From positions 1-58,738 of the IMG/VR virus record IMGVR_UViG_3300035698_006372: a stretch of DNA of 58,738 bases; one strand, 5' to 3'. A program made the position numbers and the translations under genes. Below the pieces are notes generated by a model that worked only from the letters and a program-made list of their open reading frames with translations, searched no databases and was not told the DNA's origin. This document shows, piece after piece, positions 19,810-57,378 of this stretch; the first letter of the stretch is position 1, and every line of letters starts with the position of its first letter. The DNA is from a virus.

Positions 19810-21285
19810 ATGAAAGTGGAACAAGAAATAATACGAATTGCGAAATTGCTTCTCAGTCGTTCTCCAACATCTGAAGTTGAGAGATTGATTATGGCGATAA
19901 TTCCGAAGACCCCTTTTAGGAATCGCGTGTTTAGCGTAGGAGGACATGTTCGTGATGAAGTGCTGGGGATAGATGCCAAGGACTTGGATGTCGTCATTGA
20001 AATGAAGGGTGGGGCTAAAAAGCTCACCGCCTTCATTCACAAGATGTTCTCGGGGGCTACAAACAGACCGCATCAGTTGGGAGCGTATCCCATTTGGGCC
20101 ATCGAGTTCCGTGACAATGTCGAGCACAAAGGAACAACCTATAGGACAAAGGGTGCTGAGATTGAGGTGGCAGACACTCAGAAGGAGAGCTTCCCGGATG
20201 AGAGGTCGCGGCAGAGGGTAACGGAGCCCGGAACGCTCAAGGAAGACAACGAGCGCCGGGACTTCACCGTCAACATGCTCTTGAAGGACTTGAGTACAGG
20301 TGAACTGAAAGACATGACCGGGACGAGCGTGGCTGACATCAGGGACGGCGTTTTGCGAGGTCATCCCGGCGTGGATTTCAATGAGATTTTGAGGCAAGAC
20401 CCGCTCAGGATGATTCGGTTGGTACGGTTTCAGGCGAAGTATGGATGGCGAGTTCCTTTGTCGGTCATGAAGGTCGTCAGGAAGAACGCCAAGAGGATAC
20501 GGATTGTTTCTGGCGAACGCATCCGGGATGAACTGGTCAAGCTGATGAAGATTGGCAAGCTGGCTCAGGGCATCCGGCTCATGAAGGCACTCGGGTTGCT
20601 CAAGTACGTGCTCCCGGAAATTGAGACGCTAACGCAGACAGACCATGACACGTCGAGAGGCCATCATCAGGAGGGCGATGTTTTCCGTCACACGATGCTG
20701 GTGCTGAGAAGTGCAAAACCGGGTGTTGAAAATCAGTTGGCGGCGTTGTTGCATGACGTGGGTAAGCCTGCGACTCAGGAGATTCTGGATGACGTGATTC
20801 ATTTTCATGGGCATGAGGATGTCAGCGGTGAGATTGCAGAGGCCATCATGAGACGGCTCAAGTTTGACAAGAACACCGTTCGGGCGGTTCGGCGCATGGT
20901 GGAGAATCATATGGGGCCGCACAACCTGATGAGGGGCAATCCCGGCCCGAAGGCACTCAGGAGGTTTGTCAGGAAGGTGGGAGAGGAACTGGTTGACGCG
21001 GTGCTGGATTTGGCTGAGGCGGACTCGCTGGGGAACCTTCCGCCGGTGAATGACATTCCCCAGCTTCGGAAGATGATTGAGGACGTGCAGAAGGTAGCCC
21101 CGGCTGGCGAGAAGCCTCCTCTCAACGGGCACGAGATTATGACTCTGCTCGGTGTCAATTCTGGCCGAGTGGTGGGAGAGGCCGTGCAGGTTATGCGGGA
21201 CGCGATGGATGAACTCGCGGACAAGGGTGAGGTTTTGACGAAGTTGATGGCGAAGACGTTGCTGCTGGAACATTTTGGAGAATGA
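19810..21285 (+). CDS. cca: tRNA CCA-adding nucleotidyltransferase with HD domain (491 aa)
   Basis: This enzyme adds or repairs CCA at tRNA 3-prime ends. Motifs are FSVGGHVRDEVLG (about residues 41-53) and KDLDVVIE with the two catalytic Asp (about 57-64), ERRDFTVNML (about 147-156), and a C-terminal HD phosphohydrolase with LLHDVGKPA and FHGHEDVS (about 313-340). The length suits class II enzymes with an HD domain. The first ~150 bp are A/T-rich like the endonuclease and unlike the rest of the gene. The phage tmRNA ends without encoded CCA, which gives this enzyme an obvious substrate. Confidence 0.85.
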   Translation: MKVEQEIIRIAKLLLSRSPTSEVERLIMAIIPKTPFRNRVFSVGGHVRDEVLGIDAKDLDVVIEMKGGAKKLTAFIHKMFSGATNRPHQLGAYPIWAIEFRDNVEHKGTTYRTKGAEIEVADTQKESFPDERSRQRVTEPGTLKEDNERRDFTVNMLLKDLSTGELKDMTGTSVADIRDGVLRGHPGVDFNEILRQDPLRMIRLVRFQAKYGWRVPLSVMKVVRKNAKRIRIVSGERIRDELVKLMKIGKLAQGIRLMKALGLLKYVLPEIETLTQTDHDTSRGHHQEGDVFRHTMLVLRSAKPGVENQLAALLHDVGKPATQEILDDVIHFHGHEDVSGEIAEAIMRRLKFDKNTVRAVRRMVENHMGPHNLMRGNPGPKALRRFVRKVGEELVDAVLDLAEADSLGNLPPVNDIPQLRKMIEDVQKVAPAGEKPPLNGHEIMTLLGVNSGRVVGEAVQVMRDAMDELADKGEVLTKLMAKTLLLEHFGE

Positions 21286-27439: not shown

Positions 27440-30400
27440 ATGGAAAGACGCTGTACAACCGAGTCATGCCTGCTGATGGCAGGGACGAAGTTCACTCTCG
27501 ACCTTCCCGTGGTTTCCGTTCTCACGAGGCCAAGACAAGAATGGAACACTCTGGCTCATGGCCATGGTGGCGTCCGGGTAGCTCGTGACATCGAGGTGGA
27601 TTGGGGAACCTTTACGGCTGACAGTCATCTCTTCACGCATTGTTTTCCTGCCGGGACGGAAATCCTTATGGCGGACGGTACGGGAAAGCCTATAGAATCA
27701 ATCATAGAGGGGGATATGGTTCTGTCTCATAAGGGTATTTCTAGGGCTGTGAAAGCCACGATGATCCGAGAAGTTGATGAAGAACTTGTGGGACTGGATG
27801 TGGCATCCGTTGGTAAGGTTTTCAGCACATCTGAACATCCTTATTGGATTATTCCGAAAGAAAAGTCTTGGTGTGTTCACAATAAGGGGTGGAAGAAGTG
27901 CATTTATGGAGTTGGCGGGAGATGTAAAAAGTGGTCTTGTTCGGGGAATGGGGAAGATTGCTCTTTCGTGGAGGCAGGAGATATTAAGGCTGGAGACTTG
28001 ACATTCACTCCTTCCTTGCATGGAGAGGTGGATAACACAGAGTTCGGCCTTGGGAGATTCAGACTTCTTGGTTATTACACGGCAGAAGGGCGAATCGACA
28101 AGGACGATAGAGGTAATGCTCAAGATTCTGTACGATTTAGCATTTCGAGAAAAGAGTTGGACACAATTGGTGCAGAAATCATTTCGCTGATGTCGGATTG
28201 CTTTGGGACTGACTCCTATTCCAAGTTCGGAGACCCATTAGAAGATGGGGTTACTCTTTCGTTTACGGGCAACTCTGCCGCGTCGTGGTTCCGTCGGATG
28301 GTTGGGGTTGGAAGCCTGAAGAAGAGATTCTCATTTGACGTAATGGTTGCCCCGAAAGAATATCAGGTTGAATTACTTGATGCTTGGATTGCTGGTGATG
28401 GTAATTTAGGGAAGAGGGATTCCAATGTCAGGCTCTCCACCTCAAGTAAATATCTCGCGTCACAAGCGGAAGTTCTATTCGACCGGGTTGGAGCATTAGG
28501 GATTAAGCATGGAATGAAAAATTCCGGCGGCCCAACCAATAGGGACAAGGAGTGCTTCATTTGGCAGATTGATGTCCAGAACGCAAGACTTGGTATGCTT
28601 GCAAGTAGATTTCCGGCTAAAGAATATTCACGATGGCCTCGGACAGGAGAAAGATATCGCCATGCAGCTTGTGTTGTAAGCAAGATTCGCTCTGTGTCTC
28701 GAAAATCATTTAAGGGAACAGTCTACAACCTTTCCGTTGATATTGATGAAAGCTATGTCGCTGAAAGGTGTGCTGTCCACAACTGTACCATCGTCGCATC
28801 CGTGGCCGCCGAAGAAAACGGCTACCACATCAAGCCCGCCTGTAACGGATTGGTAAACAACAACGGCAACGCTTGGACGAATGAAGTCCTCCTGTCCACG
28901 TTCAGGTCGTTTGTGGGTGGCGAGAACTATCTGGAGCATATCCAGATTCCTGAGCTTTCCAAGGGCAAGATTCTGGACGCCGTACTTCGTCCGGTCACCT
29001 ACAAGGACTCTCAGGGCCGCGAGGCCGATGTCTACTACTGCTTTTCCGGCGAGTCGAAAGTTCTCCTTGCAGATGGTTCTGTTTCTGAAATTAAGGATAT
29101 CCTTCCGGGGGTGGAGGTTATTTCTGGAGATGGGACGGTTCAGGAAGTTCTTGCGCTCAGTCACAGATTCGTACCTTCCGAGGACTTGGTAAAGGTTTCG
29201 GTGAGGGGGGTAATTGATGACACGGCGGTAACGGGGAATCACGGCCTTTGGGCTAAGAAGAACCTAGATGAAGAATGGGGATGGGTTGAAGCGAACTGTC
29301 TTGAAAAAAACTGGTGGGTTCTTCAGCCTACGCCAGATATTTGTGGGGATAAGAAGGTGTCGTCGGATTTTGCATGGCTTACTGGCGAATATGCCGCTGA
29401 GGGCTCTCTTGTGCAGCGCAAGGGGGCAGATGGTTCTCCATATTGGTCATTCACCCAATTTACTTGCCATATTGATGAAAAGGATGTGATTACCAAAGCG
29501 ACTGAATCTGTCTTAGATGAAATGGGAACTTACGATGTGCCGTTTTTCAGATCGAGATGGAACAGTGATGCACATAATATCCGAAAATGTTCTGGTTCGA
29601 TAGACTCTCGTGACAAGGGAAACGGTAGCAACATTCGAGTGGGGCATCGGGAATTGGCCTCTCGGATGTTTGACTTGTGCGGAAAAGGGGCAGCGTCAAA
29701 GAGTCTATCATCCGAGATATTGGTTGACTGGGACGATGAGTCGAAACTGCATTTCTTGGCTGGATTGATTGACGGGGATGGACACGCTCGGCGTAATGTT
29801 GTTTCTGTCAAGTCTGTAAGTAATGGCATGATTCGACAAGTAGAGTTCATTTTGTCTTCTTTAGGGATGGCTTATTCGAGCACGGGCAACTGGCACAATG
29901 GCCCTTATTCTGGATGTGTGACGATTGAACTTGATTGCTATTCGTCTGACCGCTTGCGCCCATATTTGAGAATCAAGAATGGATTTGACAAGCCTCCCGT
30001 GGAAGTTTCGATGAACAATCGGGCATCTCTTGCTGTTGATGGCGGGATAGCGAGAAGGGTTTCAGAAACGCAAAAGATGCAGGGCGAAGTGGAAATCCCT
30101 GTTTACAATATAGAGGTATCTGAAAACCACACCTATATTGTTCACAATGTGAAAGTGAAAAATTGCGACATCCTCGTGGCTACCGATAGGAGGCACGCCG
30201 GACTGGTGACCAAAATTGCAGGCGGCAAGCTCAATACCATGAGCATGGGTTGCGGAATAGCAGGAACCCCTGTGACAATGGCCGATGGGGCAACAAGGCC
30301 CGTTGAGGATATTGTTGTAGGAGACAAGGTGATTACCCATACCGGGGGAATTGCCGAGGTTGAGTCTACAAGGGTTCGCCAGACAACTTCGGGAGAACTG

Positions 30401-31897
30401 AGAAGACTTTCCGTAACCGGGATTCCAGACACGTATGTGACGAGTGAGCATCCATACTGGGCCTTGACTGGTTATGATGTTTGCACTGGATGTGGAAAGG
30501 AAATGGGTAGAAGTAAGGCCATCTCTTGGAGTTTGGACCAAGTCCTTCATCCATGGTGTTCGTCTTCTTGTCGGCAAAGGCACGTCAATTCCAACCCGAA
30601 ATGCAAAAAGAGCTTTGAGCCAATAGCTCAGAAGGTAAAATTTGGATGGGTGCCAGTATCGGAACTACGCAAGGGAGACTATGTTGCGGTTCCTCTTGGA
30701 AGGCCAGAGAAGGACAGGCGGGTGATTGACAGGTTCAAAGCAAGGCTTCTTGGATACTATGCCGCTGAGGGAAATCTTCAGCGTGCGAAAAACGGGCATA
30801 TTCGAGCGGTTGAGTTCACACTTCATGCCGACGAGCCAGCCGGAGACGAGATTGTTGAGCTTGCAAGAGAATGGGGCATAACTGAAGACAAAATATATTC
30901 ACAAGTCAGGAAAAGAAAGAGCGGGAAAAGCCGTCGAATTGTAATTCATGATTCGGGAATGGCGAAATGGCTCAAGAAGACATGTGGAGAGCATTGCGAC
31001 AAGAAGAGGCTTGAGTCATGGGTCTTAGATGCTTGTGACGATTCTCTTCTTGAGGTACTTGGTTCGTATATCAGTGGAGATGGTCATTGTCGGAAAGACT
31101 CTGCTCGTTTTACGACTGCAAGCTGTAGTCGTTCTCTCAGTGAACAGGTTTTGACAATGCTGATGGCAGTCGGGATTCCTGCAAATATCTCTTTGTCTCA
31201 GCAAAAGGGTAAAAAGCCAGCATGGTATGTGAACACAAGGAAGGGACATGCCGGAATCCTTAAGGGACGGACTTCCAAGTTTCTTCCTCAGCAGGAAAAC
31301 AACGCAAAGGTGTCCAGTGTTGGCGGATATATGCTCCGCAGAGTTAAGTCAAACGTGTCTGTGGACTTGGTTTGTGATGTTTTCAATATCCATGTCGTCA
31401 ATTCGACGAACGACCATTCATATATCATGAACGGGATTGCTGTCCACAACTGCTTGGCCGACTACGTGCAATGCTCTCGTTGCGGAAAAATCTTTGCAGA
31501 CAGTGAGCCCAGTTGCGAGCATATCGAGCGGCAGCTTCTTCAGTCTTTCACGGATGAGGACGGCGTTGAGAGAATTGTTGCGGAACTGTGTGGCCGCACG
31601 CTGGTTCAAGACGGTAATCGTGTCGGCGATGAGGGGTCTTGCAATTTCATTGAGGCGTCATGGGTCGAGAGGCCCGCCTTCTATGGCGCTGTCTTGAATC
31701 ATTATCTTACTGAACTTCCCGTGACGGCTCAGGTCCTTCAGTTCTCGACGCCGAAGCTGGCCGAGGTGGTGGATGATATTTTCCGGCTGAGGGTGGCAGA
31801 CCGTGCGGGAATGATTACGCTCAGGGTGGCTCGGGCCGAATTGATGCGTAGAAAGCGCAAGGCGATGGTGAGCCGGGTTGCGAACAGTTTCATGTAA
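27440..31897 (+). CDS. Head-maturation-type virion protein interrupted by three inteins (1485 aa precursor)
   Basis: Removing three inteins leaves about 329 residues. The extein contains HCTIVASVAAEENGY, then ENYLEHIQIPELSKGKILDA, YYCDILVATDRRHAGLVTKI, LNTMSMGCLADYVQCSRCG and FIEASWVERPAFYGAVL, a combination I recognise from the conserved protein just upstream of capsid genes in many large phages, often called a head maturation protease. Catalytic residues cannot be assigned with confidence. All three inteins sit before a Cys of conserved segments. The N-terminal ~40 residues before the first conserved segment may be affected by frame disturbance upstream. Confidence 0.65.
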   Translation: MERRCTTESCLLMAGTKFTLDLPVVSVLTRPRQEWNTLAHGHGGVRVARDIEVDWGTFTADSHLFTHCFPAGTEILMADGTGKPIESIIEGDMVLSHKGISRAVKATMIREVDEELVGLDVASVGKVFSTSEHPYWIIPKEKSWCVHNKGWKKCIYGVGGRCKKWSCSGNGEDCSFVEAGDIKAGDLTFTPSLHGEVDNTEFGLGRFRLLGYYTAEGRIDKDDRGNAQDSVRFSISRKELDTIGAEIISLMSDCFGTDSYSKFGDPLEDGVTLSFTGNSAASWFRRMVGVGSLKKRFSFDVMVAPKEYQVELLDAWIAGDGNLGKRDSNVRLSTSSKYLASQAEVLFDRVGALGIKHGMKNSGGPTNRDKECFIWQIDVQNARLGMLASRFPAKEYSRWPRTGERYRHAACVVSKIRSVSRKSFKGTVYNLSVDIDESYVAERCAVHNCTIVASVAAEENGYHIKPACNGLVNNNGNAWTNEVLLSTFRSFVGGENYLEHIQIPELSKGKILDAVLRPVTYKDSQGREADVYYCFSGESKVLLADGSVSEIKDILPGVEVISGDGTVQEVLALSHRFVPSEDLVKVSVRGVIDDTAVTGNHGLWAKKNLDEEWGWVEANCLEKNWWVLQPTPDICGDKKVSSDFAWLTGEYAAEGSLVQRKGADGSPYWSFTQFTCHIDEKDVITKATESVLDEMGTYDVPFFRSRWNSDAHNIRKCSGSIDSRDKGNGSNIRVGHRELASRMFDLCGKGAASKSLSSEILVDWDDESKLHFLAGLIDGDGHARRNVVSVKSVSNGMIRQVEFILSSLGMAYSSTGNWHNGPYSGCVTIELDCYSSDRLRPYLRIKNGFDKPPVEVSMNNRASLAVDGGIARRVSETQKMQGEVEIPVYNIEVSENHTYIVHNVKVKNCDILVATDRRHAGLVTKIAGGKLNTMSMGCGIAGTPVTMADGATRPVEDIVVGDKVITHTGGIAEVESTRVRQTTSGELRRLSVTGIPDTYVTSEHPYWALTGYDVCTGCGKEMGRSKAISWSLDQVLHPWCSSSCRQRHVNSNPKCKKSFEPIAQKVKFGWVPVSELRKGDYVAVPLGRPEKDRRVIDRFKARLLGYYAAEGNLQRAKNGHIRAVEFTLHADEPAGDEIVELAREWGITEDKIYSQVRKRKSGKSRRIVIHDSGMAKWLKKTCGEHCDKKRLESWVLDACDDSLLEVLGSYISGDGHCRKDSARFTTASCSRSLSEQVLTMLMAVGIPANISLSQQKGKKPAWYVNTRKGHAGILKGRTSKFLPQQENNAKVSSVGGYMLRRVKSNVSVDLVCDVFNIHVVNSTNDHSYIMNGIAVHNCLADYVQCSRCGKIFADSEPSCEHIERQLLQSFTDEDGVERIVAELCGRTLVQDGNRVGDEGSCNFIEASWVERPAFYGAVLNHYLTELPVTAQVLQFSTPKLAEVVDDIFRLRVADRAGMITLRVARAELMRRKRKAMVSRVANSFM
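27641..28783 (+). other. Intein 1 of the head-maturation-type protein (381 aa, LAGLIDADG)
   Basis: It starts at Cys in CFPAGTEILMADGTGKPI, a standard intein N-terminal block, and ends with YVAERCAVHN before Cys +1 of CTIVAS. Inside are two LAGLIDADG-type motifs (LLGYYTAEG and LDAWIAGDG), so it is a full intein with homing endonuclease. It should splice itself out to join HLFTH to CTIVA. Confidence 0.9.
29039..30163 (+). other. Intein 2 of the head-maturation-type protein (375 aa, atypical C-terminus)
   Basis: It begins CFSGESKVLLADGSVSEI and ends TYIVHNVKVKN before Cys of CDILVA. Endonuclease motifs are WLTGEYAAEG and FLAGLIDGDG. The usual penultimate His is replaced by Lys (VKN), while an HN pair lies five residues earlier; splicing chemistry at this end may be altered. 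Confidence 0.85.
30251..31450 (+). other. Intein 3 of the head-maturation-type protein (400 aa, LAGLIDADG)
   Basis: It begins CGIAGTPVTMADGATRPVED and ends MNGIAVHN before Cys of CLADYVQC. Endonuclease motifs are LLGYYAAEG and VLGSYISGDG. A small Cys-rich insertion (CTGCGKEMG and CSSSCRQRH) lies between the N-terminal splicing block and the endonuclease. Confidence 0.9.
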
Positions 31898-41077: not shown

Positions 41078-44000
41078 ATGACAACATTACTGGACAAGAT
41101 ACGAGCGAAAAACCTTGCTGGGCAGGCTCCGGCTCCCATGGTGACAACCTCTCCCGGCAAGCCAGCCAAAAGCCTCAGAATGAGCGCTAGGGAGGCTCTC
41201 AAAGTCTTCGGACATGAAGCCTTCAGGGAAGGACAGGAGGAGGTCGTCAACGAGGTTGTGAGTGGCACAGGCGGCGTTCTGGCTATCTTCCCAACAGGTT
41301 ACGGGAAATGCTTGGGAGGCGATGTGGGCGTTTTGATGTATAGCGGAAGAACAAAGAACGTGAAGGACGTGCGGTCCGGCGATGAGTTGATGGGGCCAGA
41401 CAGTAGTCCAAGGCGGGTCGTCAGTATTACAAGCGGGCATGGAGACCTGTATGAGGTTGTCCCGAGAAAAGGTGACCCGTATGTGACGAATGGGGAGCAT
41501 CTTATTTCATTAAGGCGAACTGAGAAAGAATTGGCCGGGAAGCTGTCTACCGTGGCTGCGAAGGACTGGGAATCAAAGACCAATAATTTCAAACATGTGC
41601 ATAAGGGCTGGAGAACGGGGGTTGATTTTCCAGAATGCTATGTCAGTGAAATTGTTACACCCTATTTCTTGGGATTGTGGCTAGGGGACGGGTCGTCGGA
41701 CTTCCCTCACATTACGACCGCAGATGGGGAAATCAAGGATTTCGTCAGGAGCCATGCTGCGAAGTTGTGCTTAAAAGTGAGAACAAACTGGAAAAAGGGG
41801 AGTCTCGCAAACACATACTGCATAACGAGCGGGAGGAGCGGAGGGGGAGCGGGTCACCATCCAAATCAACTCCTACACGCGATGCGAGAAATGGGCGTCA
41901 TAAATGACAAACATATTCCCTATGAATATCTGGTCAATAGTCGGGAAAACAGGTTGGAGTTACTGGCTGGACTTATCGACAGCGACGGATGTCTGAATGG
42001 AGAATGTTGTTATGAATTGACATTTAAGATAGAGCGATTGGCTAAAGATGCCGTGTTTTTGGCACGGTCTTTGGGTCTGGCGGCATATTGTACCAAGTGC
42101 AGGAAGAAGTGCTTCAACAATGGCAAGACTGGCACATATTTCCGAATTGGTATAAGCGGGGATGTTGAAGAAATCCCCGTCTTGCTGAAAAGAAAAAGAG
42201 CGAAAAAGAGAATCGCAATTAAAAACCATATGAATGTGGGGATAACCGTTAAGCCGTATGGAAAGGGCAATTACTACGGCTTCATGCTTGACGGCGACCA
42301 TCTGTTTCTTCTGGATGATTTTACCGTAACCCATAACTCCTTAGTTTACCAGCTTCCCTCGCTCATGTCGAACAATCTGACCGTGGTCGTATCCCCACTC
42401 ATCGCCCTAATGAAAGACCAAGTGGACAAACTCCAGAGTCTTGGGGTCAACGCCATTCTTATCAACTCGACTCTTTCCGAAATGGAGACCAGAATTGCGC
42501 TCGCGGAAGTGTCGAGTGGCGGCATCACGGCTCTGTACGTGGCTCCCGAGAGGTTTCGTAACAAGCAGTTCATCGGGGCCATCAGTAATATGGACATCGA
42601 CATTCTTGCCATTGACGAGGCCCATTGTTTCATTGGGGATACGATGGTTTTGACGCCTTACGGTGAGCGACGAATTGACTCTCTCCGGGTGGGGGACGAA
42701 GTCATTTCAGGTCAAGATGTAGAGCCTGTTGTCCGCAAGGTGTCGCGACTGTTCCTTCATCGTGGTCTGGACGTGTGGAAGATTAGTATCAACGGGCGAG
42801 ACATTTATTGCGATGGTGGTCAGCAGTTTTTCGTAAAAAGCATTGGCTTCGTTCGTGTGGACAATATACGATGTGGGCATGAAATCATTATCGAAGAGTC
42901 AGACGGTGGTGTGCGAAGTTTGCGGGACTGTCCGGGAGATGCGACTCAGGAAAGGTCGTCCGCCGAGCAAGTATTGTTCTCGGGGATGCCAGAGGAAGGG
43001 GTCGGGGAAGACCAGAAGTGTTCCGACGGTGGGGAAGACATGTCCGTCGTGCGGGGAGACATTTCAGACCAAGCCGGGATACAGGACTCGGCACTGTTCG
43101 ACTCTGTGTGGCCAGCGTTCGGAAGCGAAGAAGCTGGAGGCATCGGAGAGGATGACTCGGGACAACCCAATGAAGAGGGAAGAAGTCAGAAAGGCCGTTG
43201 GGGATATTTTGGCTGGGAAGGACAAGTTCAAGACGAACCGGGGCGGAAACGGTCGAGGCTCAACGAGGCCGGAGAAGTCACTGGCGGTTGCGGGGAGATT
43301 CTCGCTGAACCACATTGTAAGGACAGGACATTGCCGGGATGGGAGTGGTTATCCAACACATTACAAACTGGACTTGTCGTGGCCATCTCTGAAGGTGGCA
43401 GTGGAAGTGGACGGCCCGTCGCACAAGGCGTTGAAGATACAAGACGCAGACCAGCGGAAGGAGTTGTTTTTAAGGTCGCTCGGGTGGAAGGTGTTTCGCG
43501 TGTCGAACGAGGAAGCACTCTTACAACCGGGGAATGCCTTGGGAAGAATCCGGTTGGGGTGCGGCTTTACGACATCGAAGTTGAAGGAAGTCATAACTTC
43601 TTTGCAAATGGCTCCTTAGCTCACAACTGTATCAGCCGATGGGGACATGACTTCCGTCCAGCTTATTCCGACCTTGGTGGGGCTGCCGAAATGCTCAACC
43701 CGAGGATGGTTGTCGCCTTGACGGCTACGGCTACAACGAAGGTGCAAGACGATATCTGTCATGTGCTGGGAATGCCCAATGCCAAGAGGTTCGTGAGAAG
43801 CGTCTACCGGAGCAATCTTCAACTCGCCGTGGTGCATCAGTCCGGGTATGGCCGGATGCAGTGCATCACCGAAGTGGCGAAGGACTTCATAGGCGAGGGG
43901 AACAATACCGGAATTATCTATTCCACGACACGGAAAGAAGCAGAGGAAATCTGCGCATATCTACGGGAAAGGAATGTCCCGGCCATGTTCTATCATGCCG

Positions 44001-46009
44001 GACTGAAGCCCGCTATCCGTGAGAAAGTTCAGAACGAGTGGTCTCAGAATGGTGGTGTCATCGTGGCGACCTGTGCTTTCGGCATGGGTATTGACAAGCC
44101 CGATGTCCGGTTCGTCATCCACTCGGGGCTTTCCCCGAGCATTGAGGACTGGTATCAGGCGTGTGTCTATCCAGATTCGATGATATTAACGCCAGAAGGG
44201 GAGATGGAGGCATCTGATATCTCCGAGGGGGATATTGTAGCAACCATTGGGGAAGATGGTGATATATCTTCAAACAGGGTCGTTAAGAAAATTCTAGGAC
44301 ATTCTAGCGAGTGGGTCAGAATCAGGACAAAATACGGTTCTGAAATACTGGTGACTCCGAATCATCCTGTGTATTTGCGAATGGACAAGCGGTACGAAAG
44401 AGCGGATAAGTGCAAAACTGGAGATGGAATACTCAATGCCGAACACTCAAGGGAATATTCTCCAAAGGATTACAATTTTCTCGATTTCGTGAATACCGAC
44501 TTGACCTATGTTATGGTGTCACCATCTGTTTTAGACAAGGTGCGGAGTGCTCTTTCTCCTGTTGAAATGCAGAGAATATTCCAACTAAATCGTCCGCATG
44601 ATTATTCTGCATACGGGAAAGGGAAGAGGGCTCGGCTATCATGCTGGGCTGATGCGTGTAGAAAAGCAGGGGTAGAGACAGAAGAGCTATATAAGAATGT
44701 CTCAAAAATAGGCACGAGGAGCGGCACCTCTCTTGCTCGGCCTTGTTCTATGGATGGAGATTTTGGATGGCTATTGGGGATACTTGTGACAGATGGGCAC
44801 ATAAAACAAGTCAAGTCCAAGAGAATGGGAGACACCAGAAGAATTACGTTTGGTAATACTGATTCTAAAATCTTGTTAAAATTTGAGAGAATTGTTGGCT
44901 CATACGGACTTAATTGCAGCAAATACAAAAGAAAAGAGAGACAAGGAGAAAAAGAGTTTTGGGAGCTTTCCGTGTCCTCTCAACCATTGGTTGATGTTCT
45001 CGTCGCATTCGGAATGAAGGTGGGTGCAAAGTCGTACAATGTTTTATGTGATGACAAGATTAAATCTGCACCCCTTGGTTTTATCGGGGGATTCCTCGCG
45101 GGTTGTTTTGACGGAGACGGCAATTACTCAAAGCAAAATAATTCTTTCAGAATACATTCGGCATCTTGGGCGATGGTATCCTCGATGGTTGGTATTCTTC
45201 GCATGCACGGAATAAGAATGAAAATTCACACCGAGACATATCGTGGACCCGATAAGTTTGGTGCGAAGTCCCCATTCGGCTACTGTGGGGCGATATCTGG
45301 TGCCGGGAGCATTTCAGAGTTCTTGGCTCTTACTTCTGATTATAGCGTAAAGGAACAATCCTGTGATATTGAGAGCATTCGATGTCGAAGGAAAAGGAAA
45401 CCGTGCGAAGAAGATGCCATAATAGAGATTGAATCTGTCAGCATGAGTTCTCCTACGGTCAATTTTGCAGTAGAGTCCGACAATAATTATTTTGTGGATG
45501 GCGTTTTAACTCATAATTGTGGACGGGCCGGGCGTGACGGCAAGGAATCTCTTTGTCTGACCGTCTGCGACTTCAAAGACGATTATCGGACTCAGATGTT
45601 CCTGATTGACATGACGAACCCGACCGGGGCCGATGTGAAAAGGTTCTGGGCATGGCTCCAACTTGTAGCGTCGAAACAGATGGCTCCCGGAGAGAAGACG
45701 ACCGAAGTTAAGATGACTCAGAAAGTCATGAAAGAGGAGTCCGGGTGTCTCAACGTCGGCGCGTGTATCTCAGTTCTAAAGAAGAGCGGACTCGTTGAGA
45801 CGCTCGGCAGGGGCCGGTACAAGGTCAATCTGAAGGACGTGGTCATCGAAACTGATGTGCTCACGGCTGCGAGAAACGATAAGGTTGCGAAGCTCAATCA
45901 GGTCTGTGACTTCTATCGGATGTCCGGGTGCCGCTTCAAGTTCGTCTGTGACTATTTCGGGGATATGTCCTTTCCGGGTAGCTGTGGGAATTGTGACAAC
46001 TGTACGTAA
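41078..46009 (+). CDS. recQ: RecQ-type DNA helicase with three inteins (1643 aa precursor)
   Basis: The extein of about 514 residues carries RecQ superfamily 2 helicase motifs: FREGQEEVVNEVV, Walker A PTGYGK|SLVYQLP, VVVSPLIALMKDQV, ALYVAPERFR, Walker B IDEAH|CISRWGHDFRP, LTATAT, GIIYSTTRKEAEEICAYL, and motif VI HSGLSPSIEDWYQA|CGRAGRDG, plus a zinc-binding/winged-helix C-terminus (CNVGAC-like, ending CGNCDNCT). Bars mark intein positions. Each intein interrupts a catalytic motif, so the helicase is inactive until all three splice. The gene starts almost directly at its TATAAT promoter. Confidence 0.88.
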   Translation: MTTLLDKIRAKNLAGQAPAPMVTTSPGKPAKSLRMSAREALKVFGHEAFREGQEEVVNEVVSGTGGVLAIFPTGYGKCLGGDVGVLMYSGRTKNVKDVRSGDELMGPDSSPRRVVSITSGHGDLYEVVPRKGDPYVTNGEHLISLRRTEKELAGKLSTVAAKDWESKTNNFKHVHKGWRTGVDFPECYVSEIVTPYFLGLWLGDGSSDFPHITTADGEIKDFVRSHAAKLCLKVRTNWKKGSLANTYCITSGRSGGGAGHHPNQLLHAMREMGVINDKHIPYEYLVNSRENRLELLAGLIDSDGCLNGECCYELTFKIERLAKDAVFLARSLGLAAYCTKCRKKCFNNGKTGTYFRIGISGDVEEIPVLLKRKRAKKRIAIKNHMNVGITVKPYGKGNYYGFMLDGDHLFLLDDFTVTHNSLVYQLPSLMSNNLTVVVSPLIALMKDQVDKLQSLGVNAILINSTLSEMETRIALAEVSSGGITALYVAPERFRNKQFIGAISNMDIDILAIDEAHCFIGDTMVLTPYGERRIDSLRVGDEVISGQDVEPVVRKVSRLFLHRGLDVWKISINGRDIYCDGGQQFFVKSIGFVRVDNIRCGHEIIIEESDGGVRSLRDCPGDATQERSSAEQVLFSGMPEEGVGEDQKCSDGGEDMSVVRGDISDQAGIQDSALFDSVWPAFGSEEAGGIGEDDSGQPNEEGRSQKGRWGYFGWEGQVQDEPGRKRSRLNEAGEVTGGCGEILAEPHCKDRTLPGWEWLSNTLQTGLVVAISEGGSGSGRPVAQGVEDTRRRPAEGVVFKVARVEGVSRVERGSTLTTGECLGKNPVGVRLYDIEVEGSHNFFANGSLAHNCISRWGHDFRPAYSDLGGAAEMLNPRMVVALTATATTKVQDDICHVLGMPNAKRFVRSVYRSNLQLAVVHQSGYGRMQCITEVAKDFIGEGNNTGIIYSTTRKEAEEICAYLRERNVPAMFYHAGLKPAIREKVQNEWSQNGGVIVATCAFGMGIDKPDVRFVIHSGLSPSIEDWYQACVYPDSMILTPEGEMEASDISEGDIVATIGEDGDISSNRVVKKILGHSSEWVRIRTKYGSEILVTPNHPVYLRMDKRYERADKCKTGDGILNAEHSREYSPKDYNFLDFVNTDLTYVMVSPSVLDKVRSALSPVEMQRIFQLNRPHDYSAYGKGKRARLSCWADACRKAGVETEELYKNVSKIGTRSGTSLARPCSMDGDFGWLLGILVTDGHIKQVKSKRMGDTRRITFGNTDSKILLKFERIVGSYGLNCSKYKRKERQGEKEFWELSVSSQPLVDVLVAFGMKVGAKSYNVLCDDKIKSAPLGFIGGFLAGCFDGDGNYSKQNNSFRIHSASWAMVSSMVGILRMHGIRMKIHTETYRGPDKFGAKSPFGYCGAISGAGSISEFLALTSDYSVKEQSCDIESIRCRRKRKPCEEDAIIEIESVSMSSPTVNFAVESDNNYFVDGVLTHNCGRAGRDGKESLCLTVCDFKDDYRTQMFLIDMTNPTGADVKRFWAWLQLVASKQMAPGEKTTEVKMTQKVMKEESGCLNVGACISVLKKSGLVETLGRGRYKVNLKDVVIETDVLTAARNDKVAKLNQVCDFYRMSGCRFKFVCDYFGDMSFPGSCGNCDNCT
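41309..42337 (+). other. RecQ intein 1 in the P-loop (343 aa, LAGLIDADG)
   Basis: Begins CLGGDVGVLMYSGRTKNVKD and ends LLDDFTVTHN before Ser of SLVYQLP, the Walker A serine. Endonuclease motifs are FLGLWLGDG and LLAGLIDSDG. Insertion between GK and S is a common intein site because the codons are so conserved. Confidence 0.9.
42626..43627 (+). other. RecQ intein 2 in the DEAH box, with overprinted endonuclease (334 aa)
   Basis: N-terminal splicing block CFIGDTMVLTPYGERRID and VGDEVIS; C-terminal block VRLYDIEVEGSHNFFANGSL then AHN before Cys of CISRWG. The ~230 residues between have no LAGLIDADG or HNH motif and a strange Gly/Glu/Arg/Ser composition, because the same DNA encodes a real endonuclease in the +1 frame (42879-43619). 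The intein frame stays open throughout. Confidence 0.85.
42879..43619 (+). CDS. Vsr-like homing endonuclease encoded out of frame inside RecQ intein 2 (246 aa)
   Basis: In the +1 frame relative to the helicase, an ATG opens a 246-residue protein with two zinc ribbons (C12-C15-C33-C37 and C55-C58-C73-C77), a NUMOD3-type motif (RMTRDNPMKREEVRKAVG, about 91-108), and a C-terminal PD-(D/E)xK/Vsr-like nuclease (HYKLDLSWPSLKVAVEVDGP then RKELFLRSLGWKVFRVSNEE). Its stop lies nine bases before the intein ends. All expected domains of a mobile endonuclease are intact. Free-standing Vsr-like endonucleases are known inside split inteins; here the host intein is not split but overprinted. Confidence 0.85.
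   Translation: MKSLSKSQTVVCEVCGTVREMRLRKGRPPSKYCSRGCQRKGSGKTRSVPTVGKTCPSCGETFQTKPGYRTRHCSTLCGQRSEAKKLEASERMTRDNPMKREEVRKAVGDILAGKDKFKTNRGGNGRGSTRPEKSLAVAGRFSLNHIVRTGHCRDGSGYPTHYKLDLSWPSLKVAVEVDGPSHKALKIQDADQRKELFLRSLGWKVFRVSNEEALLQPGNALGRIRLGCGFTTSKLKEVITSLQMAP
44162..45517 (+). other. RecQ intein 3 in helicase motif VI (452 aa, LAGLIDADG)
   Basis: Begins CVYPDSMILTPEGEMEASDI and ends NYFVDGVLTHN before Cys of CGRAGRDG, the arginine-finger motif. Endonuclease motifs are LLGILVTDG and FLAGCFDGDG. The intein DNA is A/T-rich relative to the extein. Confidence 0.9.
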
Positions 46010-53498: not shown

Positions 53499-53952
53499 TT
53501 CATTGAAAACAAGTGAGTGGCGACTCGGGCGAACGGATCACCGAATGTGTCAGATGATTAGTCCAACCCACTGCGCGTCTGATAGTAAGATTGAGCTATT
53601 GCATATCGTCGCCACTCCTTGAAGGAGCTGGATGGAAGGTGGTACATGCGCCGTAACCGTAACACCTGGACTCAGGGGCCAAGTCATCCGACTTCTTCAA
53701 GGAGCGATGCCGTGCCAAACTGTGCGTGCGAAAAGCCGTCAGGCCGGTATCACTCAGGTTCTTTTACAATTTTGCGGGAGAGGCCCACTCAAAAGGTGGA
53801 AGCTCCCACGTGGAAGACCGGAGACGGTGACTGAAAGCCACTGTCATCGGGACAGGATGCTCAGGCAGGTGAGCGAAGTACAAGCTCACTCAAGGCGAGA
53901 GTCATTAGGTGGGATGCCAGCCTGAGTAGCCGCGTTGACTTCCTCCCGCATT

Positions 53953-53962
53953 TGTTCTTTGA
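53953..53962 (+). promoter_or_regulatory. BoxA-like element
   Basis: TGTTCTTTGA matches the rRNA-leader boxA pattern recognised by NusB-NusE. It lies inside RNA unit 1, in single-stranded context as far as visible. Confidence 0.4.
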
Positions 53963-54063
53963 TTTTGGGATGACGGTAAGCATAAGGCTTGTGGGCGGTT
54001 GTCACGATAGATGGATAGCCTATAGTGCTCAGTGATATGGCAGGCGTGGTCTTATCGTCGTCT

Positions 54064-54073
54064 TGTTCTTTGA
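54064..54073 (+). promoter_or_regulatory. BoxA-like element
   Basis: TGTTCTTTGA followed by AAACAAG, between the two closing helices of the domains of RNA unit 1. Confidence 0.4.
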
Positions 54074-54524
54074 AAACAAGTTTTCGACCAGCAGCGGTAC
54101 GGCACTGCCAGAGGATTGTGGTGAGCCGTGTCTTTCGGGTAAGTCGGAGTGTGAATCTCGTAGTAGCATTTCGATACTGTCTGAAGCCGGAACGAATCAT
54201 CACGTACCCAATGACGTAACGTACCTGCGTGTCCAAGTCTCCACACGCGACAAATTCCCTAGTAGGATAGTAACTGAACGGGTCGCCGCAAGGTGAAGCA
54301 AGCCACTCCCGGTGATTTACCGGCGGACGAGGGATGCGAGCCCCTACGTCGTGGTGAGTGATAGAGATCCCGTAGCCCCCGGTTGGGGTGGAGCAACTAA
54401 TAAGCATTGGACTGTAGTCATTGACCCGAGGACATCGAAGCCATGGTCCTACGTGGAGGAATCGGGTAGGCAAGTGTGTCGGTGAGAATCCGGCCTGCTG
54501 GTTGTTTTTGAAAACTTGAAATGA

Positions 54525-54564
54525 TTTCCGTACTGCGGACATAGTCTGACAGTATAGTGATGTG
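54525..54564 (+). promoter_or_regulatory. Class A promoter driving RNA unit 2
   Basis: TTTCCGTACTGCGGACATAG, then TGACAGTATAGTGATGTG, followed by TTCATTGACAATTG, which parallels TTCATTGAAAACAAG after the promoter of unit 1. Confidence 0.7.
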
Positions 54565-56157
54565 TTCATTGACAATTGAATATGACGAAAGTCCTCCGAC
54601 AAGTGGGGAGCAAGACACGGAAGCGGGTGCGAGGGAAACAGGACGCGCAACCCAGCGGACTTTCAGAGTACCGAGTTGGCCATAGTCTTCGGATATTTTG
54701 GCCACGGGCTTTTAAGCAACGTGTAGGGAAAGAGAGTCGGGATTGGGCACTGTGTGACAGTAGACAGCCCTCTGGGGCATGGTGGGCAACCACTGGAAGC
54801 CAGACCTCAGTCTACGGAGCGGGCCTGAGATAGCGTATCGCGCCGGACACACTTGTGTGAGCCGGGTGGCTGAAACTTGCGCCTCACTTGTCGAAGGACT
54901 TTCGTAAGAAAATGCGAGTGAATTCAGTAGTGATATTGAATGGTGACGTGCGCTGGCAGACTTGGAAACCAACATCTCTTCGGAGTGCGCTGGTAAACCC
55001 ATAGCCGCCCGGAAACACAGGCCGGGCCACTCGTTCCATTTCGTCGGACGGTCGTAAAAGCAATCCGAGTCGCCCTTTAGCGGGAGGAGAGGCAGGGGAA
55101 GCGATAGACTGTAAAAGCGAGGTAGCCCTCGCCCCGGCACATTTTCGCCCCCGATGTTGGAAACAGAGTCCAGTGGCCAAGATAAAAACAGTGTGGCATC
55201 AGTGCTGACTCCCCTGACTGAAGGGGGCGCTCTTTTCGTCAGGCGGGTGGCTAACTCAGTCTCCGCTTGGCTGGTTCCCGGCACCTTATCAAAAGCCGGG
55301 TGGTGGAGTCGGCGGGAAAACCAGAGTTAAACCTCTGTGTGAAACGTCGCCCTATGGAACCACACCCCACTCCTCGTAACAGCGGAGGCAAAACAGGGCA
55401 TGTGTCCGGGATGCGTAAACCGGAGTTCGTAGTGGATTCGTTCCGACCGTGAGCCTCATGGCAGGTACAGTGACAGATTCGGCACATGTCGGGCAGCGTT
55501 CCGGCGAAACTCGTAGAAGCCTTCTTCGAGATGAAATATGGGTGTCGGAAGAACTGCGGGAAGCAAACAGCCCGCTCTGGCCCTGTGGCGAACAAGCCTG
55601 CCCCTATTTTTGAGGGAGAAGCGGACGTGCAGTCCATAACGCCTTAGATGCACATCGAGGAAGCGGGCACTTGTGCAAGAACCCGTGATGGCAGAACGAA
55701 GCGCGGCCCTCTCGTTTTTGATTTTATGGTTCGCAAAGCGTACCCACCAAGCACCGGAATGAGTCAGCGAGGTGGCGGATGGCGAATGAAAAACTGTCCG
55801 GCAGGCCCAAAAGGCAGGCACACAAACGCAAGCTGTAAAAAGACCCTGCGGGATTGACTCCCTCGGAGGAGTGTCTTACCATATTGACTTTGTGGAGATG
55901 ATGATGACAAGGCTGTCAATCCGAGTGGGAAAAAACTTGCGAGGTCGGCAGCCAGTCGGTTCCCGTGAGAAGGTAAACCTGTCACGGCACGGGGACGGGT
56001 AAACTTGGCCAATAGCCCTAGTTCTGACAGGATTGCGGGGCGTACAAGGCCGACGGCTCGAAAGCTCGTTATCATCTTCAGTTTTTGAAATCCCGGCTCC
56101 GTAGTCCGAGGTGGGCTTGAGCAATATCGGACCATAGATAGGGCCTTTACCGGGATT
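54565..56157 (+). ncRNA. Large structured non-coding RNA, unit 2 (~1.6 kb)
   Basis: A second gene-free stretch behind its own class A promoter. The first domain is closed by a near-perfect 20-bp helix, CGAAAGTCCTCCGACAAGTG (54586-54605) with 54885-54904, one mismatch. Further hairpins include CACAC/GTGTG near 54850, CCCGGC/GCCGGG near 55280, CAGAG/CTCTG near 55325, CTCGTAGAAG/CTTCTTCGAG near 55513 and AATCCCGG/CCGGGATT at the 3-prime end near 56095-56157. Short GNRA-like and UUCG-like loops are frequent. No rRNA, RNase P or group I/II intron core was recognised. The end runs directly into the tmRNA leader. Confidence 0.7.
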
Positions 56158-56167
56158 CGCTCTTTGA
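56158..56167 (+). promoter_or_regulatory. BoxA-like element before tmRNA
   Basis: CGCTCTTTGA followed by TAATT lies six bases upstream of the tmRNA 5-prime end, the position boxA-like sequences take before stable RNAs. Confidence 0.4.
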
Positions 56168-56172
56168 TAATT

Positions 56173-56589
56173 GGGCGTGACTTGGTTTCGACCTACGAAT
56201 GCAAGTTGCGAACTGCATGTGGAAGCATGGTAAGAGTGGCTTCCTTAAAACTCTTCCAAAACGAAGTAAACGGAAACGTTCTTCAATTCTCTGGTGCCGT
56301 GGCCCCCGTGGCCATGGCTGCCTAACGGCAACCAGCGTTGCGCTCTCGGCTTGCTGAGGAGAGGGATGTAGCGACGATATGACAGCAGAACCCCGGTGGG
56401 TGTCCGGGAAATGGCATCCAATGAGAGTGTGCGACGCCCGTTTACTACGGTGCTCTCTGGAAGAAGAGTCTACTGCGGCCTGCCGGGGGCCTAATCCTGA
56501 TGGCGACATTGGGAAGAAGTACCCGGACAAACATGTAGAGGTTCGTGATAAGCTCGTATGGGACCGGGGTTCGATTCCCCGCACGTCCA
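56173..56589 (+). ncRNA. ssrA: tmRNA (ssrA), 417 nt
   Basis: The 5-prime GGGCGTG pairs with CACGTCC at the 3-prime end (seven pairs, one G-U). The conserved TTTCGAC follows the acceptor strand, and GGGGTTCGATTCCCC forms the T-arm. The mRNA-like part contains a frame ending AVAPVAMAA then TAA at 56323-56325, the Ala-Ala ending typical of degradation tags; the resume codon is near 56257-56260 but not certain. CCA is not encoded (CACGTCC is followed by AAG). It rescues stalled ribosomes and tags their products. Confidence 0.9.
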
Positions 56590-56787
56590 AGTTGGTGATT
56601 TCAGACCACCGCCAAGTGGTACCAACTGGAAACAGCCGAAAGGCTGGCTAAGAGTCTGAAAAATGAGAGTCGATGATATCCTGAATGATTTTCAGGAACT
56701 GGAGATTTTTTATTCGCAGGCCCATCCGGGTTTACTGGCATAGTGGGACATGAGTCTCTCGTGTCTTCATCCGAAGACGGAGGTCGT
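56590..56787 (+). other. tmRNA-ACP spacer with hairpins and possible weak promoter
   Basis: About 200 nt without a convincing gene. It contains CAGCCGAAAGGCTGG, a stable GAAA hairpin just after the tmRNA, and a CCTGAATGATTTTCAGG hairpin. ACTGGCATAGTGGGACATGAG near 56733 resembles the class A 3-prime box. A 26-codon frame at 56664 is not supported. Confidence 0.35.
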
Positions 56788-57027
56788 ATGAAAGCGGTCA
56801 AGGAAAAAATCCGTGAAATCGTCGGTCATATCCTTGAAGTGAACCTACACGAGAGGGATGACGGCAAAACGGTGATGGAGCTTGGTGTTGATTCCCTACA
56901 GTGTATTGAGATTGTCATTGACCTCGAAGAGGAGTTTGGTATCAAGATACAGGATTCAGATGCCGACGGATTGAAGACCGTCAATGACATCGACATCTAC
57001 CTGGAGGCTCGTGGAATCGAAGGATGA
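56788..57027 (+). CDS. acpP: Acyl carrier protein (79 aa)
   Basis: ATG after GACGGAGGTCGT. The 79-residue acidic four-helix protein has the phosphopantetheine site GVDSLQCIE (Ser about 37), followed by EEEFGIKIQDSDAD and a late YLEARGIE, as in bacterial ACPs of the same length. It carries acyl chains on a 4-prime-phosphopantetheine arm added by a host enzyme. No other lipid or polyketide gene is visible here. It lies between the tmRNA and tRNA genes. Confidence 0.88.
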   Translation: MKAVKEKIREIVGHILEVNLHERDDGKTVMELGVDSLQCIEIVIDLEEEFGIKIQDSDADGLKTVNDIDIYLEARGIEG

Positions 57028-57090: not shown

Positions 57091-57167
57091 TGCGGGGTGG
57101 AGCAGTCCGGTAGCTCGCTAGGCTCATAACCTGGAGATCGCAAGTTCAAATCTTGTCCCCGCTACCA
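57091..57167 (+). tRNA. Initiator tRNA-fMet (CAT)
   Basis: A 77-nt cloverleaf with CCA encoded. Acceptor GCGGGG pairs with CCCCGC while the first position is T1 against T72, an unpaired 1-72 as required for formylation of initiators. The D-arm has GAGC/GCTC with A11-T24, also an initiator mark. The anticodon CAT is at 57125-57127. The anticodon stem has G-C, G-C, A-T next to the loop rather than three G-C pairs. Overall it matches bacterial initiator tRNA closely. Confidence 0.92.
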
Positions 57168-57222
57168 AGACAAGCCGATGACCAGGAGTGGTTGTCCTTT
57201 ATTTTTGGACATCGTATCAGAT

Positions 57223-57306
57223 GGCGGGATGGCCGATTGGATAGGCACCCCAACTCTCTTCGGAGGGCGGGGCACGAAGTAGGTTCGATTCCTGCACCCG
57301 CCGCCA
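57223..57306 (+). ncRNA. tRNA-like RNA without a normal anticodon loop (84 nt)
   Basis: Acceptor GGCGGG pairs with CCCGCC, discriminator G, CCA encoded. D-arm GCC/GGC with TTGG, and T-arm GTAGG TTCGATT CCTGC are normal. The anticodon region instead folds as CCCC, AA, CTCTC, TTCG, GAGGG, C, GGGG: a continuous hairpin capped by a stable UUCG tetraloop. No seven-base loop with U33 can be drawn that also gives a five-bp stem. Only a long-variable-arm tRNA that has lost its anticodon arm could give a similar picture. Confidence 0.7.
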
Positions 57307-57348
57307 TAGATGTGGACGGTCAAGTAGCCGTTCAAGACAGACGTAGAA

Positions 57349-57378
57349 GCCGCAGGGCATAATGCCCTGCGGCTTTTT
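57349..57378 (+). terminator. Rho-independent terminator after the tRNA genes
   Basis: GCCGCAGGGCAT TA ATGCCCTGCGGC then TTTTTG. Very strong stem ending the tRNA unit. Confidence 0.92.

Follow-up and report, generated by a model that had tools for sequence, protein, structure and literature searches.

A tRNA-like RNA without a usable anticodon behind tRNA-fMet in a metagenome-derived phage record

Phage tRNAs are usually viewed as decoding molecules, either supplying codons or withstanding cleavage. For several enzymes that meet tRNAs decoding is irrelevant: RNase P, CCA enzymes and T-loop modification enzymes work on the acceptor/T half of the molecule and can dispense with an anticodon. Engineered RNAs in which a tRNA body carries a hairpin in place of the anticodon arm, i.e., the layout described below, are recognised in E. 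coli, undergo processing and modification there and are stable (PMC3753655), and theta ribozymes are found beside phage tRNAs (PMC10879173). An RNA that presents every tRNA contact surface except the anticodon is not explicable by decoding, and it is such an RNA that we describe here.

The window, by which we mean the whole stretch of 58,738 bases analysed, is a virus record (G000) that carries TerL, a CCA-adding enzyme, a tmRNA, an acyl-carrier-like ORF, a tRNA-fMet and the tRNA-like element (Table 1). The element, whose extent had been given exactly by the initial annotation, reads GGCGGGA-UG-GCC(GAUUGGAUA)GGC-A-CCCC(AA)CUCUC-UUCG-GAGGG(C)GGGG- in its 5' part and -CACGAA-GUAGG(UUCGAUU)CCUGC-ACCCGCC-G-CCA in its 3' part, and its predicted fold comprises acceptor, D and T arms, as that annotation had listed along with discriminator and CCA, plus a closed arm at the anticodon position. 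Six of the seven acceptor pairs form, all of them G-C (position 7 is A.A), the 3-bp D arm (GCC-GAUUGGAUA-GGC) has A14 and GG, the T arm (GUAGG-UUCGAUU-CCUGC) has five pairs including one U.G, and both the elbow-forming T loop and the D-loop GG are in place. The stem at the anticodon position had been described as continuous and capped by UUCG; it is indeed closed by a cUUCGg tetraloop, but it is not continuous, as an AA/C internal loop separates 4 bp of CCCC/GGGG from 5 bp of CUCUC/GAGGG (one U.G). Enumeration of the possible arms gave no canonical one (5-bp stem, 7-nt loop with U33). ARAGORN calls the element tRNA-???, and its drawing requires a 5-nt loop and a C.C mismatch; the gene prediction with and without an intron model that had been proposed gives the same outcome, with no canonical arm either way. 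As a member of the tRNA family the element therefore shows the acceptor/D/T order (with one acceptor mismatch), the elbow nucleotides and the CCA, and lacks the 5-bp arm, 7-nt loop and U33; its RF00005 score of 25.7 bits lies below the gathering score of 29. A canonical alternative fold was sought and not found. The element is a tRNA-derived RNA unable to read codons, and the claim that it could not decode stands, there being neither an alternative anticodon nor an intron solution.

Table 1 Coordinates of the tRNA-like element, its neighbours and longer anticodon-less RNAs of other phages. Positions are those of the window unless a locus is named.
Feature	Position	Strand	Remarks
tRNA-like RNA without usable anticodon	57223..57306	+	84 nt including CCA; ARAGORN, RF00005 below gathering score, no canonical arm
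Acceptor 5' strand GGCGGGA	57223..57229	+	partner 57296-57302 ACCCGCC; A7.A66 mismatch
D arm GCC-GATTGGATA-GGC	57232..57246	+	3 bp; A14 and GG of elbow
Closed arm at anticodon position	57248..57272	+	CCCC / AA-C internal loop / CUCUC-UUCG-GAGGG / GGGG
T arm GTAGG-TTCGATT-CCTGC	57279..57295	+	sequence and predicted fold
Discriminator G73 and encoded CCA	57303..57306	+	sequence
tRNA-fMet(CAU)	57091..57167	+	upstream, same orientation as element; ARAGORN, RF00005 59.4 bits
Terminator-like hairpin and U-rich run	57177..57205	+	between fMet and tRNA-like RNA
Strong intrinsic terminator	57345..57377	+	downstream of tRNA-like RNA
CCA-adding enzyme / poly(A) polymerase family protein	19810..21285	+	Pfam PF01743, PF12627, HD
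Phage tmRNA	56173-56590		separate from tRNA-like element
Anticodon-less RNA of 115-140 nt	L282 8033-8167	-	large phage
Anticodon-less RNA of 115-140 nt	L345 6689-6828	-	large phage
Anticodon-less RNA of 115-140 nt	L284 8627-8742	-	large phage
Anticodon-less RNA of 115-140 nt	L285 8652-8785	+	large phage
Anticodon-less RNA of 115-140 nt	L341 5645-5761	-	large phage
Anticodon-less RNA of 115-140 nt	L343 18794-18930	-	large phage

The tRNA body is certainly real and beyond chance: a descriptor of acceptor, D arm and T arm had no match in 2.72 Mb of third-order Markov sequence of the family. The closed hairpin taken alone is within chance, as 430 of 5000 dinucleotide shuffles of the 32-nt interior (9%) were at least as stable, and the fold of the whole element has z = -1.38. 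Given that the interior is rich in C and G runs, which accounts for this weak significance, the supported claim is a tRNA body without a readable anticodon and not a hairpin under selection. When flanking RNA is included, the minimum free energy structure is not a cloverleaf, and the adjacent fMet, plainly a tRNA, fails likewise there. Among viral tRNAs with the same D-arm motif, the anticodon arm had a 7-nt loop and at least two pairs in 119/119 cases (mostly 5/5), and even the weakly paired members are recognisable tRNAs. Of 1196 distinct ARAGORN tRNA calls in the collected phage loci, 11 came without an assigned anticodon, and two of these 11, i.e., the window element and one RNA in record G030, have a closed UUCG arm.

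The terminator-like hairpin between tRNA-fMet and the element has a 5' arm, AAGCCGATG, in common with the fMet terminator of the relative G001. In an alignment of the fMet region with four syntenic relatives the tRNA-like segment is found in the window record only; in these relatives fMet runs directly into its terminator, and the window has a further strong terminator after the element. Owing to this absence we regard the element as a lineage-specific insertion behind tRNA-fMet; its site holds no gene in the four relatives, with an intact anticodon or otherwise. By its 5' part the closest tRNA is a phage tRNA-Gln(UUG) in L172 (24/25 identical over nt 2-26), with Ser- and Cys-type tRNAs close behind. 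G73 is compatible with Gln or Ser. The phage collection contains no homologue beyond the generic T arm, and the acceptor, D arm and T arm of the element, used as exact patterns, matched none of the viral contigs scanned. A 27-mer spanning T arm and acceptor occurs in 0 of the searched bacterial genome contigs, which thus offer no support for the idea that a host tRNA was copied as an attachment site. Searches with TerL returned 12, then 38 viral loci, with close relatives in IMG/VR only and no matches in bacterial genomes. Regarding neighbouring proteins, no relatives were found for one of 84 aa, and one of 189 aa had two partial matches (G001 and G002). The CCA-adding enzyme encoded by the record could in principle maintain CCA ends.

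Several other features of the record deserve mention. A phosphopantetheine-attachment (acyl carrier-like) protein is encoded at 56788-57027, between tmRNA and fMet, and by eye small proteins similar to it occupy the same place in G001 and G013. Upstream of the tmRNA, ca. 2.7 kb (53500-56170) are without convincing sense ORFs and contain blocks conserved in relatives (54361-54509, 76% to G001; 54453-54498, 95.7% over 47 nt to G015; 55382-55603, 68% to G001); Rfam gave no match here at E<=2, and we consider the region a candidate large structured non-coding RNA. In two regions (27440-31897 and 41078-46009) the ORFs are very long and bear intein-like inserts, of which several apparently sit in one gene, according to our reading of the sequence.

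A candidate HDV-like ribozyme (RF02682) is seen at 56590-56660 and also in G001 (L061 1786-1716, minus strand), with scores of 34.3 and 37.8 bits that are below the gathering score of 44. It begins where the phage tmRNA, a gene with no encoded CCA, has its 3' end, and by eye the J4/2 cytosine and helices P1, P2, P3 and P4 are present; position 1 of a 7-bp P1 in the window candidate would be A, not G. Such a ribozyme would release the tmRNA at its discriminator. A pairing of ribozyme and tmRNA was not found in the literature searched, and the main text of the theta ribozyme study (PMC10879173) makes no mention of tmRNA. In G015, a Twister-P5 match just over gathering (L278 832-908, 38.0 vs 37.6 bits) lies close to both the tmRNA and a second fMet-like gene, and at L278 about 1805-2240 the T arm of the tmRNA is apparently split by ca. 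400 inserted nt that precede ...CCCCGCGTCCACCA and may be a group I intron.

A search of related phages for the same form, as the initial annotation had suggested, did reveal comparable anticodon-less tRNA-like RNAs. Scanning ca. 1.36 Mb of TerL relatives for tRNA bodies without an anticodon arm yielded, besides the window element, two RNAs with no usable anticodon. That of G001 (176 nt, G3.U70/A73, a closed GUGAC-GAAA-GUCAC hairpin, a long arm, z -3.41) lies directly downstream of the ribozyme-like RNA behind the G001 tmRNA, and that of G016 (130 nt, G3.U70/A73) has a tRNA-Ala-like body, a 3-bp hairpin and a long arm (z -3.96). Judged by sequence, both could be chargeable without an anticodon, because G3.U70 with A73 constitutes alanine identity; the window element has no G3.U70. 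In BLAST comparisons among ca. 1200 phage tRNAs, the window element and that of G001 pick each other as best match, with so thin a margin (35.4 vs 34.0-35.4 bits) that we do not claim orthology. A U-rich loop, UUAUUUU, common to the G001 and G016 arms was considered and gave no link to the window element.

An independent case with almost the design of the window element comes from more distant phages (TerL about 33%), in which the jumbo phage G030 has a 79-nt RNA that reads GCGGGGG-UA-GCUC..GAGC-A-CCG(C)GGGCC-UUCG-GGUCU(U)CGG-GUAC-GGACG..CGUCC-CCCCCGC-G; its minimum free energy structure, with z -3.30 and 84% of the ensemble, is a perfect cloverleaf in which the UUCG arm is closed. Just downstream of it, at L286 6820-6850, the 5' half of another tRNA is followed by an apparent reading frame, which reads as an interrupted tRNA gene. 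Six further anticodon-less RNAs of 115-140 nt are present in five other distant records (G020, G021, G022, G026 and G029), with a perfect 7-bp acceptor, a structured insert, a canonical T arm and a D stem of mostly 6-7 bp closed by a 3-4-nt loop with GG. Several also have a small GCU..AAGC hairpin just 5' of the T arm, and they possibly form one RNA family; G020 and G021, which have tmRNAs of equal score and tRNA clusters that mirror each other, may be near-duplicate phages. As these forms were selected by a pairing descriptor, their pairs are not independent evidence, and more weight falls on the shuffle-tested folds of G029 (z -3.73), G030, G001 and G016. A loose closed-hairpin filter returned many ordinary tRNAs (7-nt loop with an extra pair), and among its entries those with no canonical arm were kept; most long entries without an anticodon proved to be tRNAs of the ordinary kind with an unusual D arm, tRNAs carrying inserts, or pairs of joined tRNAs. 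Inserts of ca. 40-90 nt in the anticodon arm occur in phage tRNAs of L137 (2928-3098, 3871-4025 and 5005-5161, plus strand), L116 (269-386, minus strand) and L175 (2888-3007, minus strand), and within several of these inserts lies a hairpin resembling a T arm or an entire nested mini tRNA-like fold.

We favour, at a probability of roughly 45%, a non-decoding, tRNA-shaped stable RNA, by analogy a natural counterpart of the engineered "tRNA scaffold". Almost as probable is a relic, i.e., a recently acquired Gln/Ser/Cys-like tRNA gene that lost its anticodon arm by local rearrangement, the rest appearing intact only as the loss would be young. The lineage-specific insertion, the likeness of the 5' half to tRNA-Gln(UUG), the A7.A66 mismatch, an interior hairpin not beyond chance and the existence of 11 phage tRNA calls without an assigned anticodon are all as expected of such a gene. 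A homologue showing a deletion in a normal tRNA was not found, and the collections searched hold no close homologue. However, decay would have been limited to the anticodon arm, with elbow, T arm, G73 and CCA kept, and RNAs that are likewise closed or lack an anticodon turn up again in relatives, the folds of some being far from random. In turn, the acceptor mismatch, the chance-level hairpin and the lack of a counterpart, both at the syntenic site of four relatives and, apart from the generic T arm, in the phage collection, count against a stable RNA.

The remaining explanations appear much weaker. The fold might serve only to mark where RNase P or a 3'-end enzyme cuts, parting fMet from downstream RNA, as in mitochondrial t-elements and the MALAT1 mascRNA, and both the position between fMet and a strong terminator and the fact that RNase P and 3'-end enzymes require only the acceptor/T half would suit this; yet the fMet gene encodes a CCA of its own, and in four relatives, which do without such an element, a terminator comes straight after it, which makes this reading improbable. 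The mascRNA-like model RF01684 did not match the element at E<=10, its sole weak match being the T-arm/acceptor region of the tmRNA (56541-56588). Phage tRNAs with 40-90-nt anticodon-arm insertions lend some plausibility to a tRNA with a very short intron or an unusual anticodon loop that would decode once spliced, but the ARAGORN intron model yields no canonical arm, no 5-bp/7-nt arm exists, and the flanking CCCC/GGGG pairs leave C33 instead of U33, so that we give it very little credence. Equally remote is a metagenome assembly artefact or a chance similarity: the element is known from a single metagenome-derived contig, but a complete tRNA body with CCA is unexpected by chance, its base composition is continuous with the flanks and the surrounding genes have syntenic relatives.

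If the element is a stable non-decoding RNA, its transcription would coincide with that of fMet or follow it closely; host RNase P would generate the 5' end, trimming would leave the CCA at the 3' end, and the product would accumulate in tRNA shape. The tRNA body would protect the RNA and engage proteins that recognise acceptor, T arm and elbow, candidates being RNase P, the CCA enzyme, T-loop modification enzymes, PNPase or Ro-type RNPs; its role would most likely be that of a competitor or decoy for such factors, or of a carrier of the hairpin, and not of a translation adaptor. Among the functions that the initial annotation had offered, a decoy for tRNA-processing enzymes and a processing signal are structurally plausible; the enzymes concerned would be those acting on the tRNA body (RNase P, CCA enzyme, T-loop modifiers), of which the RNA may also be a substrate. 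Anticodon nucleases recognise and cut the anticodon loop, and a decoy for them is unlikely because that loop is gone. GlnRS and CysRS depend on the anticodon, SerRS requires a long variable arm and the AlaRS signal is G3.U70; with Gln/Ser/Cys-like tRNAs as its nearest kin, no G3.U70 and no long variable arm, an aminoacylation sink is not supported. A seryl or alanyl identity, considered in view of the element's Ser/Cys-like D arm, was rejected for want of a long variable arm and of G3.U70.

The presence of at least two longer ones in relatives suggests that this phage group has repeatedly made non-decoding tRNA-like RNAs. It is conceivable, if rather doubtful, that the large tailed phages of the broad group to which this one belongs encode a hitherto unrecognised kind of small RNA, tRNA-shaped, matured by RNase P and CCA enzymes, with the anticodon lost, that mimics tRNA bodies during infection. 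Its members would be the closed-UUCG RNAs of the window and G030 and the longer-armed ones of G001, G016, G020, G021, G022, G026 and G029, and tmRNA is present in these genomes too, as are Ro60-like proteins and CCA-adding enzymes in part of them. Non-decoding tRNA mimics are already known as a kind, and a wider class of them among large phages is possible. An RNA like the window element would provide a natural, genetically tractable probe for the phage-host proteins targeted via the tRNA body, and it predicts an RNA class that annotation pipelines call "undetermined tRNA" or overlook.

Compared with a canonical phage tRNA (RF00005), the element shares acceptor, D and T arms, elbow nucleotides, discriminator, CCA and a place beside tRNA-fMet, but has no anticodon loop and stays under the Rfam gathering score. 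A tmRNA likewise has a tRNA-like domain without an anticodon loop and is charged independently of an anticodon; it differs in its tag reading frame, pseudoknots and missing D stem, and this phage has a separate one. With the theta ribozymes (HDV-like, beside phage tRNAs; PMC10879173) the locus shares a phage RNA-processing module, although here the ribozyme-like RNA abuts the tmRNA and not a tRNA. TROVE-domain (PF05731, Ro60/Rsr-like) proteins of ca. 600 aa are encoded by 7 of the 18 further records that were searched; in G001, G003, G013 and G015 the gene is close to the same fMet, the other three records being G005, G006 and G009, and it is absent from the 58.7-kb, possibly incomplete window record. 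Given these Ro60-like proteins in relatives, the bacterial Y RNA (YrlA, RF02553), a non-decoding tRNA mimic associated with Ro60/Rsr, was considered and ruled out on arm order and model: RF02553 has its T-arm region before its D-arm region (by our reading of the coordinates, T arms correspond to model positions 31-47 and D arms to 63-81) and a Ro60-binding basal stem made from the 5' and 3' ends, whereas the element has D then T and free acceptor ends, and the model had no match in the window record at E<=10. In the engineered tRNA scaffold (PMC3753655), acceptor, T and D arms are kept as here and the anticodon stem-loop is turned into a hairpin insert; that RNA is man-made and carries cargo, whereas the window element is natural and bears a short UUCG hairpin.
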